A DNA stretch of 64,000 nt from Candidatus Aquiluna sp. IMCC13023. Lineage in GTDB: Bacteria > Actinomycetota > Actinomycetes > Actinomycetales > Microbacteriaceae. The stretch is from assembly GCF_000257665.1 (NCBI RefSeq), contig NZ_AJKR01000001.1:1-64000 (forward strand). Reading direction: 5' to 3'. Shown piece by piece: positions 19,228-27,249 of the stretch (its first letter is position 1; each line of letters opens with the position of its first letter). The notes beneath the pieces were generated by a model. The model did no database searches, was not told the DNA's origin, and worked only from the letters and a program-made list of their open reading frames with translations. The position numbers and the translations under genes were made by a program.

Positions 19228-19258
19228 AACCCCCGCAGTCTGACTGCGGGGGTTTTTT
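19228..19258. terminator. Bidirectional terminator between rplL and zupT
   Basis: AACCCCCGCAG (19228-19238) pairs with CTGCGGGGGTT (19244-19254), with a TCTGA loop and T-run 19253-19258 on the plus strand. The T-run touches the stop codon of the convergent zupT gene, which probably uses the same hairpin. Confidence 0.9.
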
Positions 19259-20088
19259 CATAGCCTGAGCAAGACCAAGCTGGTTGCCATTACTGCCATG
19301 CCGGCAATCAGGCCGTAAACAGTCAGGTGACCACGGGCCGAGTTCTTGGCGGTCGGCAAGAGCGTATCTATGGCAAGAAATACCATCACGCCGGCGACCA
19401 TGGAGAACACAAAGCCCAGTGAGAAATCTGTGAGGAATGGCCTCAAAATCAGGTAGCCAATAATCGCACCCGCTGGCTCAGCAAGCCCCGAAAGAAAACT
19501 TAGTTTGAAGGCTTTGCTTCTTGACTTTGTTGCGTAGTAAACCGGCACCGAAACCGCAATGCCTTCTGGGATGTTGTGAAGGGCCACTGCTACCGCCATC
19601 GCGATTCCAACTTCTGGGTCATCGAGTACCAGCAAGAACGTTGCGAGCCCCTCGGGAAAGTTGTGGATAGCAATTGCCAAAGCCACGAAAAGCCCCATTC
19701 GAAGCAGTGCCTTATTACTGGCAGTCTCCAGCATGTCGAGTTGGGTTTGGTCGTTGCCTATTAGTTCGATCTGTGTGTTCTCGTGGGGGTTTGCTGAGGA
19801 AGGCACCAGCGCATCTATGATCGCCATAACCACCATGCCAAGAACCAATGCGAAGGCCGCGTAGCCGGCGGCCTCAACGCTCGATACCGTGCTGGCCATG
19901 TAGGCGGTGGCCTTCGGAATGATTTCAACGAAGCTCAGGTAAATCATTACCCCCGCGGAAAACCCCATTGATATTGCAAAGAAGGTCTTATTCGTGGTCT
20001 TGGTGAAAAAGGCAAGGGCTGAGCCAATTCCTGTGGATAGCCCAGCCGCCAGTGTGACCCCGAAGGCCAATAGCAGCGTGCTGTCCAT
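19258..20088 (-). CDS. zupT: ZIP-family metal transporter (ZupT type)
   Basis: ZIP proteins import divalent metals (Zn, Mn, Fe). The 276-residue protein has eight predicted membrane spans and both metal-binding motifs of the family, HNFPEGLA in TM4 and HNIPEGIAV in TM5. A loop of about 30 residues between TM3 and TM4 is charged (DALVPSSANPHENTQ). It lies downstream of nrdHIEF and the micropeptide but behind a terminator; since class Ib ribonucleotide reductase uses manganese or iron, a metal-supply link is attractive but inferred. Confidence 0.92.
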   Translation of the reverse strand: MDSTLLLAFGVTLAAGLSTGIGSALAFFTKTTNKTFFAISMGFSAGVMIYLSFVEIIPKATAYMASTVSSVEAAGYAAFALVLGMVVMAIIDALVPSSANPHENTQIELIGNDQTQLDMLETASNKALLRMGLFVALAIAIHNFPEGLATFLLVLDDPEVGIAMAVAVALHNIPEGIAVSVPVYYATKSRSKAFKLSFLSGLAEPAGAIIGYLILRPFLTDFSLGFVFSMVAGVMVFLAIDTLLPTAKNSARGHLTVYGLIAGMAVMATSLVLLRL

Positions 20089-20110: not shown

Positions 20111-20139
20111 AAAAAGCCGGGTAACTTATGTCACCCGGC
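20111..20139 (-). terminator. Terminator of the nrd operon
   Basis: On the minus strand GCCGGGT (20139-20133) pairs with ACCCGGC (20122-20116), followed by TTTTT (20115-20111). It stands after the micropeptide and before zupT. Confidence 0.85.
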
Positions 20140-20152
20140 CTGATCAATTTAT

Positions 20153-20203
20153 CTAGTGCTTACCGTTGCAGTTGCAGCTATCTTTTGAGCAGTTGCAGTC
20201 CAT
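20153..20203 (-). CDS. 16-residue Cys-rich micropeptide at the end of the nrd operon
   Basis: The frame reads MDCNCSKDSCNCNGKH and stop. Four Cys occur as two C-N-C pairs, with Asp, Lys, Asn and a terminal His, a composition fitting metal binding or thiol chemistry. The start has a perfect ribosome site: AAGGAGG directly follows, and overlaps, the nrdF stop region (20216-20208), six bases before the ATG. A rho-independent terminator follows 14 bp after the stop. So it is the last cistron of the nrdHIEF transcript. I know no named family; the function is unknown. Candidates are a metal chaperone for the NrdF cofactor, a redox buffer, or a regulatory peptide. It is too short for ordinary gene calling. 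Confidence 0.65.
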   Translation of the reverse strand: MDCNCSKDSCNCNGKH

Positions 20204-20213
20204 TTTCGCCTCC

Positions 20214-21197
<984 letters not shown>

Positions 21198-23372
21198 CTA
21201 GAGCATGCAGCTGACGCAGCTATCAACCTCTGTACCTAACAGGGCCTGCTGACGAATGCGGATGTAATAAATGGTTTTGATGCCCTTGCGCCAAGCGTTT
21301 ATCTGCGCACGGTTTACGTCTCTTGTGGTGGCGGTGTCTTTAAAGAACAAAGTAAGCGACAAGCCCTGATCTACGTGCTGGGTTGCAACAGCGTAGGTTT
21401 CAATGGTCTTATCTGGACCGAGGTCATAAGCGTCTTCGTAGTAGTCCCAGGTGTCTTCCGATAAGAACGGCGCTGGATAGTAAACCCGGCCCAATTTACC
21501 TTCTTTGCGAATCTCAATGCGAGATGCAATTGGGTGGATTGAGCTTGTTGAGTTGTTGATGTAGGAAATCGATCCGGTCGGTGGCACCGCCTGGAGGTTC
21601 TGGTTGTAAATACCGTGAGCCATGACCGAGGTCTTTAGTTTCTTCCAGTCAGCCTGAGTAGGAATCCTCGCTCCCGATTTTGCAAAGAGCTCCTTTACCT
21701 TCTCGGTTTTAGGCTCCCACACCTGGGTTACGTACTTCTCGAAGTACTCGCCACTTGCGTAGGTGGAGTTTTCAAAGTTACCAAAAGTGCTGCCTCGTTC
21801 GATAGCGATCTTGTTTGAGGCCTGGATTGCGTTGAACACCACGGTGTAGAAGTAGATGTTTGTGAAATCAAGGGCTTCTTCGCTGCCGTAGTGAATGTGC
21901 TCGCGGGCTAGGTAGCCGTGGAGGTTCATCTGTCCTAGACCAATCGCGTGACTCTTGTGGTTACCGTCGGAAATCGAGCGAACGCTAACGATGTCGGACT
22001 GGTCGCTCACAGAGGTCAATGCGCGGATTGAGGTCTCGATAGTTTTTGCAAGATCCGGACCGTCCATTGCCATGGCAATGTTTAGTGAACCCAAGTTGCA
22101 GGAGATGTCCTTACCAATCTGGTCATATGACAAATCAGCGTTGTAGGTGGTTGGTGTGTTCACCTGGAGGATCTCAGAGCAGAGGTTTGACATGTTGATG
22201 CGACCCTGGATTGGGTTGGCCTTGTTTACGGTGTCTTCATACATGATGTATGGGTAGCCAGACTCAAACTGAAGCTCTGCTATGCGCTCAAACAAGGTGC
22301 GAGCCTTGATCTTCTGCTTCTTGATTCTTGGGTCATCAACCATCTCCTGGTACTTCTCAGTAACTGAGATGTCACCAAATGGCACTCCGTAAACCTTTTC
22401 GACATCGTAGGGCGAGAACAGGTACATGTCTTCGTTGTCTTTTGCCAAGTGCATTGTGATGTCTGGAACTACTACGCCGATTGAAAGAGTCTTGATGCGA
22501 GTCTTCTCATCAGCGTTCTCACGCTTGGTGTCTAGGAAGCGAAGGATGTCTGGGTGGTGAGCGTTTAGGTAAACCGCGCCAGCACCCTGACGAGCACCAA
22601 GCTGGTTTGCATAGGAGAAGCTGTCTTCCAAAAGCTTCATCACCGGGATGATTCCGGATGACTGGCCTTCAATCTTCTTGATTGGAGCTCCATACTCACG
22701 AACGTTAGAAAGGTTAAGGGCAACGCCACCGCCACGCTTTGAAAGCTGGAGGGCTGAGTTGATGGCCCTAGAAATCGACTCCATGTTGTCTTCGATTCGA
22801 AGGAGGAAGCACGAGACAAACTCGCCACGCTGCTTCTTGCCGCAGTTTAGGAAAGTAGGAGTGGCTGGCTGGAAGCGTCCCGAAATGATTTCTTCAACCA
22901 TTGAGATCGCAATGTCTTCTTTACCCTCGGCTAGCGCCAAGGCAACCATTACTACGCGATCTTCGAATCGCTCTAGGTAGCGCTCACCATCAAAAGTCTT
23001 TAGTGCGTATCCGGTGTAGAACTTGTAGGCACCCATGAAAGCGTCAAAGCGGAACTTCTTGGAGTAAGCAAGCTTCTCTAGTTCTTCAATGAACTCGAAG
23101 CGGTACTGGTCCAAAATCTCTTTTTCGTAGTACTCATTCTCAACCAGGTAGTCCAAGCGCTCTTTCAGAGAGTGGAAGAACACCGTGTTTTGGTTTACGT
23201 GGTCCAAGAAGTACTTGCGAACAGCGAGCTTGTCTTTTGCAAGCTGCATCTTTCCGTCTTTGTCCCAAAGGTTGATCATGGCGTTGAGCTCGTGATAGCT
23301 CATGGCACTTTCGATGCCAGTCTTGCCGGTTTCAACTCCGTTGTCGTCTAGTTCTATTACCTGGTTAGCCAC
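21198..23372 (-). CDS. nrdE: Class Ib ribonucleotide reductase alpha subunit
   Basis: NrdE reduces ribonucleoside diphosphates. The 724-residue protein starts without an ATP-cone overall-activity domain, as typical for class Ib. Visible features are [20 protein letters not shown] (first active-site Cys), the radical-Cys loop [25 protein letters not shown] and the C-terminal redox Cys pair in CVSCML, which is recharged by NrdH. It overlaps nrdI by 16 bp. Confidence 0.96.
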
Positions 23373-23761
23373 AGCTTCTCCAGCCTCTCTTTTACTTGCT
23401 CGATATCGTCCGGGGTGCCCAGCAGTTCCGCTTTATAAATCATTGGAACTCCAAGCTTGGCGGCTACCAGGTCTCCAGCTAATCCATAGGAAGAGCCGAA
23501 GTTGGTGTTCCCAGTTGCAATCACGGCACGCACGTGTTTGCGGTTTGCAGGATTGTTCAAGAACTTTATTACCTGCTTGGGAACAGTGTTGTTGTCATCT
23601 CCAGAACCATAGGTTGGGACCACTAAAACACTTTCGCCCTCATGAATAAAGCTTGCAGCTTCATCGGTTTTGAGGGGGATTCGAATACTTGAGTATCCGA
23701 GTTTCTCGACAAATCGCTTAGTGTTCTCCGAAACCGAAGAAAAGTAAACGACGTCGAACAT
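23357..23761 (-). CDS. nrdI: Flavodoxin-like NrdI
   Basis: NrdI is the flavoprotein that supplies the oxidant for assembling the dimanganese-tyrosyl cofactor of NrdF. The 134-residue protein has [18 protein letters not shown] (phosphate loop), VPTYGSG and GNTNFGSSY motifs typical of NrdI. It lies 12 bp after nrdH and overlaps nrdE. Confidence 0.95.
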
Positions 23762-23773
23762 TTCTGGCTCCGC

Positions 23774-23998
23774 TCAGGCGCTAAGTGACTGAATGCGGTC
23801 CATGCGGAAACCACTCCAGTGGTCCTCGCCTGAAACAACTACCGGAGCTGCCGTGTAACCCAAGGTCTTCACCATGTCTAGAGCCACTGGATCCTGGCTC
23901 ATGTCAACCTCGTCATACTCGATTTGGTTGCGCTGCATCATGCGCTTGGTGCTATCGCACTGCACGCAGGCTGGAAGTGTGTAAACGGTAACCGCCAT
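23774..23998 (-). CDS. nrdH: NrdH redoxin
   Basis: The 74-residue glutaredoxin-like protein, with thioredoxin-like behaviour in known members, carries the redox motif CVQC (residues 11-14, LPACVQCDSTKR) and the C-terminal WSGFRMDRI signature of NrdH. It reduces NrdE. As first gene of the operon it has an AAGGAGG ribosome site (24011-24005). Confidence 0.95.
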   Translation of the reverse strand: MAVTVYTLPACVQCDSTKRMMQRNQIEYDEVDMSQDPVALDMVKTLGYTAAPVVVSGEDHWSGFRMDRIQSLSA

Positions 23999-24100: not shown

Positions 24101-24146
24101 CACTACATCTAGTGATGAATCGCTAAAAAATCCACTTATTTAGTTA
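24101..24146 (-). promoter_or_regulatory. Tandem NrdR-like boxes upstream of nrdH
   Basis: CACTACATCTAGTG (24101-24114) is a palindrome close to the NrdR consensus, and CACTTATTTAGTTA (24133-24146) is a weaker copy. Their centres are 32 bp apart, about three helical turns, as in known NrdR operators. On the minus strand a TATTAT -10-like element lies at 24091-24086, so the first box would cover the -35 position. NrdR represses RNR genes when dATP is plentiful. Confidence 0.65.
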
Positions 24147-24310: not shown

Positions 24311-24793
24311 TTGCGCAAGTTGGCACTAATTCTTTCTAGCCTGCTGGTTTTAACCGGATGTTCGACCAAGACCGAAGTCTTAGCTACTGACATGTGGGTC
24401 AAATCCTCCGAGATTTCGACCGCTCAGGGCATGACCGCCGTCTACGGAACGCTCACAAACGACTCCGGTGATGACATCGTGCTAACCGGAGGTAGGACAG
24501 ATTTAGCTGAAATCGTAGAGATTCACGAAATGGCAATGATCAGTGGCGAAATGAAAATGCAAGAAATTGACGGCGGCTTAGCGATTCCGGCCGGACAGAG
24601 CATTCAATTGGAGCCGGGCGGCAATCACCTAATGCTTATGGGCCTCACTCAGGACTTGTTAGCCGGCGACCAGATCACCGTGACCTTTAGTTTTAGAGGT
24701 GCGCCGGACCTTGTCGTCGAAGGGGTTCTTGCTAAGCCGGCCGAGGGCGGCGACGAGGAATACCACTCAACAAAAACAGACATGGAAAACTGA
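24311..24793 (+). CDS. PCu(A)C-family copper chaperone lipoprotein
   Basis: The 160-residue protein has a lipoprotein signal (LVLTGC, Cys17) and the Cu(I) site of the PCuAC family: IHEMAMISGEMKM and, later, NHLMLMGL, giving the His/Met ligand set H-M...M...H-M. Members deliver copper to cytochrome oxidase or other exported cuproproteins. Start TTG 24311 is preceded by AAGGAAAA. It overlaps nothing but is separated from the DyP gene by a single base, so the two are co-translated. Confidence 0.88.
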   Translation: MRKLALILSSLLVLTGCSTKTEVLATDMWVKSSEISTAQGMTAVYGTLTNDSGDDIVLTGGRTDLAEIVEIHEMAMISGEMKMQEIDGGLAIPAGQSIQLEPGGNHLMLMGLTQDLLAGDQITVTFSFRGAPDLVVEGVLAKPAEGGDEEYHSTKTDMEN

Positions 24794-24794
24794 C

Positions 24795-26006
24795 TTGGTT
24801 AGTCGCAGAGGGTTTCTTGGCGGCGGAGCGGCGGCAGCTGCCTCCGGCGTGCTTGGTGCTACCGGCGGAGCCTATGCAGCCGGCGCCGTTGGTGCAGAAA
24901 ACCTCGAGACCTTTGCTGCCAAACGAGAGCTGGCTTTTCACGGCGACCACCAAATGGGCATCGAAGCGGATTTGCAATCCGTAACCAATTTCATCTCGCT
25001 TGATATCAAACCAGGCAGCAACCGAGCTTCAATGCTCAGATTTATGAGCCTGCTAACCGATGACATCTTCCGGTTATCCCGCGGCGAACCTGTGCTGGCG
25101 GACCCGGCACCGGAACTGGCAATTGGTGCGGCAAGATTCTCGGCCTACGTTGGTTTTGGCCCCAGTTTCTTTGAAAAACTAGGCCTGGAATCCAAGATGC
25201 CAACCGGCTTTGGAAAACTACCAAAATTTAAGGTTGACCAACTTCAAGATAAGCACTCCTCCGGAGATGTTTTGATTCACATAGCCGCCGATGATCCAGT
25301 CGTACTGGCCCACGGGACCAGAGGGCTTGTGAGAGATGCGATGCCATTTGCCTCGGTTCGCTGGGTCCAGTCTGGTTTTGCTCACACGCCGGGCATGGTT
25401 CCTCCCGGAATAACCCACCGAAACCTGATGGGTCAGGTTGATGGTACGGCTAATCCGAAGCTGGGTACAGCAGATTTTGACAAGGTCGTTTGGATAGAAG
25501 ATGGTCCATCCTGGATTCAGGGCGGCACGCTATTAGCCTTTCGTCGCATAGCAATGCAGCTTGATACTTGGGATCAGCTTGGAACTTCTAGTAAAGAAGA
25601 AGTTATTGGCCGAAAGCTATCCAACGGCGCGCCACTAACCGGAGATATTGAAAGCGACATTCCGGACCTTGGGGCCAGGCACCCAAATGGACTGAGCGTG
25701 ATTCCAGAATTCGCTCACATTAGAAGGGCTGCTCCAGAAAACCTTGACGAACGCATCTTCCGCAGGCCGTTCTCCTACGAAGCTGGTATTTCAAGTGCCG
25801 GATCAGTGGACGTTGGGTTGCTTTGGACTGCGTATCAGCGGAACATGGAGAACCAGTTCATCCCAATTCAAAGACGCTTAGACGAGCTAGACCTTTTGAA
25901 TGAGTGGACTGTTCCAATTGGCTCCGCGGAATTTGCGATTGCTGGAGGAGTAAGGCCGGGCGAAGTCATCGCAGAGGCGCTATTCTCTTATGGTGTCAGA
26001 ACCTAA
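24795..26006 (+). CDS. Tat-exported DyP-type haem peroxidase
   Basis: The 403-residue protein starts at TTG 24795 with SRRGFLGGG, a twin-arginine motif, and an Ala/Gly-rich hydrophobic segment. The DyP signature is visible as GQVDGTANP with the catalytic Asp, and the probable proximal haem His lies in FAHIRRAAPEN, with a downstream Arg. DyP peroxidases oxidise dyes, aromatic compounds or porphyrin-like substrates with peroxide; EfeB relatives act in iron uptake. Pairing with PCuAC is seen in other Actinobacteria. Its 3' end overlaps the MFS gene by 17 bp. Confidence 0.9.
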   Translation: MVSRRGFLGGGAAAAASGVLGATGGAYAAGAVGAENLETFAAKRELAFHGDHQMGIEADLQSVTNFISLDIKPGSNRASMLRFMSLLTDDIFRLSRGEPVLADPAPELAIGAARFSAYVGFGPSFFEKLGLESKMPTGFGKLPKFKVDQLQDKHSSGDVLIHIAADDPVVLAHGTRGLVRDAMPFASVRWVQSGFAHTPGMVPPGITHRNLMGQVDGTANPKLGTADFDKVVWIEDGPSWIQGGTLLAFRRIAMQLDTWDQLGTSSKEEVIGRKLSNGAPLTGDIESDIPDLGARHPNGLSVIPEFAHIRRAAPENLDERIFRRPFSYEAGISSAGSVDVGLLWTAYQRNMENQFIPIQRRLDELDLLNEWTVPIGSAEFAIAGGVRPGEVIAEALFSYGVRT

Positions 26007-27249
26007 GCCAAACCGGATTCGCGGCAGGGTTATAGATTCTGGAGATCAGCTTTCTAAAAGAATGCTGATTGGCTACGTTGTAATTTTGGCTCTGTCAATG
26101 AGCTTGGTGCCCTACGCAATTGACCCCTTCCTTCCGGCCTTCCCCGAAATAGCCACTTACTTTGGCGTTCCAAACGGAACCGTGCAAGCTTCGCTAACCG
26201 GTGTCACGGTGGGTATTGCGCTTGGGCAGCTGGTTATCGGGCCACTCTCTGACGCCTTTGGTCGAAGACCTCTGATCCTGCTTGCAACCGCTGGCTTTGG
26301 TTTGAGCGCGCTACTGGCATTTTTCGCACCGAACTTCGAAACCTTCTTGGGTCTTCGGTTTGCAATGGGGTTCTTTGCTGCTGGCGCTGACGTGGTGAGC
26401 CGAGCAATTGCTAGAGACCTCTACCGTGGGCATCGCATGCAGACAATGCTGGCAAAAATCTTTTTGATTCAATCGCTTTCACCGATTATCGGACCGATAG
26501 TCGGAGCCCAAGTTACTCAAGCAGGCAACTGGCAAGCCATATTTCTGATCTTCGGATTCGGCGGCATTATCTTGGCGCTTTTCTCATCTGGATTACTTGT
26601 TGAGACTTTGCCGGTCGCAAGGCGAAGAAGTAGCACGCCCATGGGGTTGGCGCGAGGTTACCGTGCGGTTTTGAAGGACCGGGTTTACATCGGCCTCATG
26701 ATATTTGGAGCCTTCCAGATTTCAGCGCTGTTCGCCTATCTAAACAACGTCCCGTTTTTGTTTCAAGACAGTTTTGGTCTAAGCCCGAGTGACTTTGGGT
26801 TTTGGATTGCGGCTAATTCGCTGGCGTCATATGTTGGCGTTCAAGTCGGTGCTTATGCCGCAAGGCATATTAAGGGCCAGTGGCTACTGGCGATTTACTC
26901 AAGCATCGGAATATTTATAGGTGCCGGGTTATTCGCAACCGCCGGATCTGGGTTGGTTGTTGCAGAAGCCTTTTTTATGCTTCAGCTATTTATCTTTGGC
27001 GCTGGAATTACAACCATCCCGACCATCGCGCTTTATAACCACGGCTCCGAGGCCGGAACAGCAGCTTCTTTGCTTGGAGTGGTGAACTTCACAACAGCCA
27101 GCGTGGTTTCGATTGCCTATGGGTTCATGAATAATCAAGACACCCAAGACATTGGAATCTTGATTGGGCTGTTATTCGTTGTTTCACTTTCCAGCCTGAT
27201 GTTTATTACGAGACCGTGGAAAGTTCCGGATCTAAGAAGCGGCAGTTAG
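25990..27249 (+). CDS. Bcr/CflA-type MFS drug exporter
   Basis: The 419-residue protein has twelve predicted membrane segments and the Bcr/CflA features of the DHA1 family: PFLPAFPEIATYF in TM1 and the motif A loop GPLSDAFGRRPLIL. Such proteins export drugs or dipeptides such as Cys-containing ones. Overlap with the DyP gene implies one operon of three genes. It is tail to tail with the EamA transporter gene. Substrate unknown. Confidence 0.87.
   Translation: MVSEPKPNRIRGRVIDSGDQLSKRMLIGYVVILALSMSLVPYAIDPFLPAFPEIATYFGVPNGTVQASLTGVTVGIALGQLVIGPLSDAFGRRPLILLATAGFGLSALLAFFAPNFETFLGLRFAMGFFAAGADVVSRAIARDLYRGHRMQTMLAKIFLIQSLSPIIGPIVGAQVTQAGNWQAIFLIFGFGGIILALFSSGLLVETLPVARRRSSTPMGLARGYRAVLKDRVYIGLMIFGAFQISALFAYLNNVPFLFQDSFGLSPSDFGFWIAANSLASYVGVQVGAYAARHIKGQWLLAIYSSIGIFIGAGLFATAGSGLVVAEAFFMLQLFIFGAGITTIPTIALYNHGSEAGTAASLLGVVNFTTASVVSIAYGFMNNQDTQDIGILIGLLFVVSLSSLMFITRPWKVPDLRSGS

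Follow-up and report, generated by a model that had tools for sequence, protein, structure and literature searches.

Small metallothioneins are represented by the fungal copper metallothioneins, as in Neurospora, and by the mycobacterial protein MymT. Behind nrdAB of E. coli sits the ferredoxin gene yfaE. How class Ib ribonucleotide reductase (RNR) obtains manganese over tighter-binding metals in cells is an open question. CutF-like proteins are nascent-chain copper sensors, often encoded upstream of metal-homeostasis genes (PMC9973294), and a majority of C(P)XCG zinc-finger micro-proteins in Haloferax are reported to bind zinc (PMC11241148). Here we describe a 16-residue, Cys-rich micropeptide encoded directly behind nrdF in Candidatus Aquiluna sp. 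IMCC13023, and compare its locus with those of related genomes. The window, meaning the whole stretch of DNA that was analysed, spans 64,000 nucleotides (assembly GCF_000257665.1, contig NZ_AJKR01000001.1, positions 1 to 64,000).

A short reading frame behind nrdF

The features of the locus are as follows.

23774..23998, minus strand: nrdH, glutaredoxin-like protein (TIGR02194)
23357..23761, minus strand: nrdI, flavoprotein (TIGR00333)
21198..23372, minus strand: nrdE, class Ib RNR alpha subunit (TIGR04170)
20214..21179, minus strand: nrdF, class Ib RNR beta subunit (TIGR04171, PF00268)
20209..20215, minus strand: Shine-Dalgarno (SD) site AAGGAGG, 2 nt of it common to the nrdF stop codon, with the ATG 5 nt further on
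20153..20203, minus strand: micropeptide reading frame, MDCNCSKDSCNCNGKH, 16 aa and TAG (direct reading, and conservation in 23 loci)
20111..20141, minus strand: intrinsic terminator, a 12-pair hairpin and T run (fold z -6.1)
19258..20088, minus strand: ZIP transporter of the ZupT type (PF02535; NCBIfam equivalog NF003243 above cut-off)

The original prediction placed a 16-residue Cys-rich reading frame at 20153-20203, and it was present as described on the minus strand. Its codons are ATG, GAC, TGC, AAC, TGC, TCA, AAA, GAT, AGC, TGC, AAC, TGC, AAC, GGT, AAG, CAC and TAG, and the first 15 bases (ATGGACTGCAACTGC) occur a single time in the genome. The perfect AAGGAGG said to be fused to the nrdF stop was also there, with a 2 nt overlap, and the names given to the operon genes (nrdH, nrdI, nrdE and nrdF) are all backed by NCBIfam models. 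A rho-independent terminator had been claimed behind the frame; we found a 12-pair hairpin followed by T's that begins 11 nt past the micropeptide stop, with its G+C core about 13 nt past the stop. The terminator stretch of 53 nt folded at -23.2 kcal/mol (z -6.1), and none of 200 shuffles reached equal stability. A simple consensus terminator scan did not list the hairpin behind the micropeptide, probably because its stem extends into the T tract. At the gathering threshold, an RNA family scan of the window returned four tRNAs only, with no known family at the micropeptide region. The ZIP gene, which did not figure in the original prediction, starts 22 nt past the T run of the terminator.

Upstream of nrdH lies an imperfect palindrome, CACTAGATGTAGTG (24101-24114, minus strand), which resembles an NrdR box. 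Genes for a PCu(A)C copper chaperone, a DyP-type peroxidase and an MFS protein follow at 24311-27249 on the plus strand, divergent from nrdH. All three were found at 6 of 15 related loci compared, and the block appears to have been deleted, partly or wholly, in L045, L190 and L191. A link between the micropeptide and these divergent copper genes was rejected: among the 15 loci they were unmatched beside nrdH in three that encode the peptide (G009, G010 and G303) and were present in G008, which does not encode it.

Conservation and selection in related genomes

An nrdF match was present in 20 of 22 genomes of the same genus (g1); completeness is 77% and 50% in the other two. When the sequence downstream of nrdF was read, the micropeptide lay behind it in 19 of these 20 g1 loci. 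The exception was G008, where nrdF runs straight to the hairpin and a whole-genome profile search was also without a match. Outside g1, the micropeptide was found in G163 (genus g81) and in G303, G362 and G415 (genus g11). In g11, nrdF was matched in 24 of 67 genomes, and in 11 of 22 when the better genomes are taken by themselves; judging from this search for class Ib nrdF, the class of RNR seems to differ within the genus. The micropeptide was present in 3 of the 21 g11 genomes with a readable nrdF 3' end, out of the 24 with a match. With a limit of E 0.05, the peptide profile had matches in 4 of the 67 genomes of g11; the match in G412 was dropped as chance (E 0.046, with an internal stop), and the second match in G362 is the opposite end of one broken locus. 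Of 80 named contigs retrieved with NrdF, two likewise carry the micropeptide, L045 (CALGUV010000171.1) and L046 (JARXAN010000028.1); both stand outside the count of 23 loci, and L046 probably duplicates the record of G015. The micropeptide lies directly behind nrdF in all 23 loci, and a hairpin behind it appears in the RNA fold of each; in G016, no run of at least three T's was found past the hairpin. In G008 and G222, the order is nrdF, hairpin, ZIP, with the micropeptide absent and no remnant of it, so that it is dispensable even where a ZIP gene lies behind nrdF.

The 23 coding sequences reduce to 18 different sequences at the DNA level and 14 at the peptide level. Across the 18 DNA rows, Met1 and Cys 3, 5, 10 and 12 show no variation; Asn4 occurs in 17 of the rows, and Asp2, Gly13 and Lys15 in 16 each. 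Lys7 is present in all 17 rows that have no gap at its position, and His16 in 14 of the 17 that have none at its own; N4, K7 and G13 stand at 90% or more in alignment A1 too. The C-terminal His is absent at four of the 23 loci (G303, G362, G415 and G163). The consensus is M-[DG]-C-x-C-x(3,4)-C-x-C-[GN], mostly with a K-H end, and length differences are of whole codons, giving 15 or 16 aa. With the start codon excluded, pooled pN/pS was 0.29 over the 18 rows and 0.28 over the 14 gapless rows. Column shuffles of the alignment had a mean pN/pS of 0.84 and a minimum of 0.33; none of 500 was as low as the observed value, a count that is not a strict probability because the rows are kin. As frame controls on the 14 gapless rows, the reading frame itself, ATG included, gave a pN/pS of 0.26, against 1.39 and 0.47 for the other two frames. 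The value for nrdF at 20 of the peptide loci was 0.12, indicating that the micropeptide is constrained, though less than the enzyme.

The signals for translation are conserved as well. In all 23 loci, an exact stretch of at least 5 nt from AAGGAGGT ends 4-7 nt ahead of the ATG. Counted from the first base of the nrdF stop, the ATG follows at 12 nt in 7 loci, 13 nt in 10, 15 nt in 3 and 16 nt in 3, and the SD is kept throughout. Relative to nrdF, the micropeptide is in frame 0 in 10 loci and in frame +1 in 13. This difference between loci rules out a C-terminal extension of NrdF made by read-through or frameshift, and the micropeptide is thus not an nrdF read-through product. Of the refuting conditions set out with the original prediction (no conserved CxC...CxC pattern, a lost SD, or a dN/dS near 1), none was borne out. 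Taken as a comparison of sequences, its position, SD and conservation identify the frame as a genuine conserved micropeptide gene, and together with the pN/pS of 0.28 they bear out the proposal that it is the last cistron of nrdHIEF and is under selection.

The range of the gene appears narrow. At the family level, a profile search matched 17 of 398 genomes at E up to 0.1. Eleven of these matches were near full-length with E below 1e-5 (eight g1 genomes, G303, G362 and G163), several of them in genomes that had contributed to the profile itself; the remaining six were partial, with E 0.008 or worse, and were taken as chance. The 396 genomes at the order level gave the window's own match and one partial match (E 0.006), while the class (394 genomes) and phylum (296 genomes) gave the window's own match only, at E up to 0.001; these draws of genomes overlap. 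Other profile matches, beyond nrdF loci, had E 0.006 or more and were partial or contained stops. Since a profile of 16 positions has limited power (its own score is 34 bits), it may overlook more distant relatives. A reading frame with CxC...CxC within 300 nt behind nrdF was found at 4 of 103 loci in the set L022-L124 (L023, L024, L045 and L046). The other 99, mostly from other Microbacteriaceae, mycobacteria and relatives, had no such frame in 300 nt (a shorter flank in two of them), and class Ib RNR therefore does not generally need the micropeptide. Viral contigs gave no exact match to a micropeptide pattern that is blind to a TCN codon at position 6 and would thus miss the window's own form.

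On a tree of 47 NrdF rows, from which three short rows were left out (G362, G415 and G453), the distribution of the micropeptide requires at least three changes, as gains or losses. The NrdF sequences of G303 and G163 are nested in a supported clade of g1 rows. This nesting suggests either a transfer of the nrd block, micropeptide included, between genera or genera that are not cleanly delimited.

The metal-importer slot

The ZIP gene lies directly behind the micropeptide in 19 of the 23 loci. In G003 the contig ends a few codons into an apparent ZIP gene behind the micropeptide. The remaining gene orders are informative: G019 (L005) has an Nramp gene in place of ZIP behind the micropeptide and terminator, G002 keeps the micropeptide with ZIP displaced about 1.5 kb, beyond an oppositely oriented gene, and G017 keeps the micropeptide in a genome where neither the ZIP nor the Nramp family was found. 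Of the nrdF loci in these genera, 19 lack the peptide: nrdF is followed directly by Nramp in 9 of them, ZIP is present in 2, and the flank that was read contains neither gene in the other 8. Across the 22 g1 genomes, Nramp turned up in G019 alone and ZIP in 18, with two of the four lacking ZIP (G007 and G021) being incomplete. From these gene orders, the position behind nrdF is an importer slot that is filled by Nramp or ZIP, while the micropeptide stays with nrdF. Its retention where the importer was lost, swapped or moved (G017, G019 and G002) ties it to nrdF rather than to the importer, in agreement with the original assignment to the nrd operon. The association between micropeptide and ZIP is strong in counts, but reflects two or three independent changes, too few for a statistical test; the phylogenetic comparison used 39 rows, with G002 and G003 scored as ZIP and with G362, G415 and G453 left out as too short.

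The start of ZIP lies 18-27 nt past the T run in 17 of the 19 loci with both peptide and ZIP, and 64 nt past it in G303; in G016, where the T run was not found, the distance has no value. Such a gap leaves little room for a promoter, and expression of ZIP probably relies either on read-through or on a promoter lying within the peptide and terminator stretch. The short gap also leaves room for a leader role of the reading frame, which is weighed below.

Predicted function and comparison with known systems

We favour a predicted metal-thiolate role for the micropeptide. The best explanation as a whole, held tentatively and with somewhat less than even confidence, is that it serves as a free, one-ion, metallothionein-like thiolate buffer beside NrdF. 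As the last cistron of nrdHIEF it would be translated and remain in the cytosol, and its own SD overlapping the nrdF stop leads us to expect it from the same message as NrdF. It is small and high in Cys, with four among 15-16 residues, in two CxC pairs that do not vary in the 18 rows. These pairs would supply four thiolates, mostly accompanied by the C-terminal His, to form a site for one ion. Thiolates' metal preference is general chemistry, and the site would be expected to bind a single soft or borderline ion (Zn(II), Cu(I) or Fe(II)) much more tightly than Mn(II); it could serve as a dithiol too. A predicted broad-range importer, of the ZupT type here where sister lineages have Nramp behind nrdF, would bring metal in, and a buffer made beside NrdF would shield the Mn/Fe site from competing metals. 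Two rival variants of the buffer reading are Fe(II) delivery to NrdF and a thiol exchange that involves NrdH/NrdE. The explanation is weakened by the lack of the micropeptide in G008 and G222 and by its presence in G017 without ZIP or Nramp, as well as by the C-terminal His missing at four loci, by a constraint weaker than that on nrdF and by the few independent changes behind the ZIP association. A more specific proposal, in which a four-thiolate RNR accessory of 16 residues guards or loads the NrdF site where ZIP replaced Nramp behind nrdF, is doubtful; such a dedicated RNR accessory factor would be smaller than any known to us.

Among the alternatives, a redox partner is unlikely. Here, a CxC dithiol peptide would reduce NrdE, NrdF or NrdI beside NrdH and have no metal role. 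CGC-type dithiols mimic protein disulfide isomerase, and the pair of CxC motifs encoded directly after a class Ib RNR would suit such a function, but NrdH is encoded in the same operon and normally does that job, and the paired CxC...CxC arrangement suits a metal site at least equally well.

We consider it distinctly unlikely that the frame is a metal-sensing leader, in which translation of the Cys-rich sequence would govern terminator read-through into ZIP in a CutF-like manner. The order of short reading frame, hairpin and metal transporter resembles such a system, as does the closeness of ZIP to the T run, and CutF-like proteins commonly precede metal-homeostasis genes (PMC9973294). However, the micropeptide is kept with ZIP gone, swapped or moved, and the order nrdF, hairpin, ZIP exists without it in G008 and G222. 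Nor was a general antiterminator apparent, since pairing of the hairpin 5' arm with upstream RNA was not generally above shuffled sequence: this fold was below the plain-shuffle mean in 8 of 23 loci, mostly by about 1-2 kcal/mol or less, and by 6.5 kcal/mol in G303 (G004 and G005, where the arm is too short, are uninformative, and the arm of G010 is shortened by a mismatch). A chain of 16 residues would still be within the ribosome tunnel. CutF works via export, and inspection of the micropeptide found 16 polar residues with neither a signal sequence nor a hydrophobic stretch.

An Fe-S or iron-donor peptide for NrdF, placed like yfaE behind nrdAB, is improbable. The four Cys ligands and the position directly behind the beta subunit gene would fit, but class Ib enzymes use NrdI, which the operon has, and the peptide profile matched no chain in the PDB up to E 10, a collection of solved structures that does not cover all metallothioneins. 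Less probable still is a Cys-tRNA attenuator, in which Cys codons would stall the ribosome under cysteine shortage and change downstream expression. Four of the 16 codons are for Cys and a terminator is close behind, but conserved non-Cys residues (N4, D2, G13, K15, H16 and K7), fixed Cys spacing and the lack of a general antiterminator all stand against it, and the next gene is a metal importer that changes between genomes. That the frame arose by chance in the terminator region and is no gene at all deserves hardly any credence; its very short length and confinement to one small clade are outweighed by its conservation, SD site, frame and pN/pS, on which grounds we rejected it.

A tiny conserved thiolate peptide in the NrdF transcript would add a new element, open to direct testing, to the explanation of how manganese is selected. 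Rhodoluna lacicola, possibly a related organism, takes up DNA by natural transformation and is amenable to gene inactivation (PMC11577799). The case also shows that selected genes of 16 codons, which gene calling easily misses, can be found by comparing the gaps between stop codons and terminators.

The micropeptide gene has probably not been described so far. Among the matches listed in a search of open-access literature, no title described it, and that literature yielded no paper joining nrdF to a small cysteine-rich operon protein, none joining ZupT, NrdF and manganese, none joining Luna-1, Rhodoluna or Aquiluna to ribonucleotide reductase, and no paper on the Neurospora metallothionein. 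The main text of an RNA-seq paper on Rhodoluna (PMC8591293) does not mention nrd, ribonucle-, small ORF, zinc or terminator. As the search covered an open-access collection, the novelty is provisional.

The micropeptide resembles small metallothioneins in its shortness and repeated CxC pairs; it differs in having four Cys only, enough for about one ion, and in sitting in an RNR operon. It shares with NrdI, NrdH and YfaE the character of a small helper encoded beside RNR subunits, but it is 16 residues long with two CxC pairs, and NrdH and NrdI are separately present. Like the C(P)XCG micro-proteins of Haloferax (PMC11241148), it is tiny with paired Cys, but its pairs are CxC rather than C(P)xCG motifs. 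The resemblance to CutF (PMC9973294) lies in a reading frame with a Cys/metal motif before a metal gene and a hairpin between them. In contrast to CutF, the micropeptide is far shorter, has no signal peptide by inspection, and outlasts the loss or swap of the downstream metal gene.
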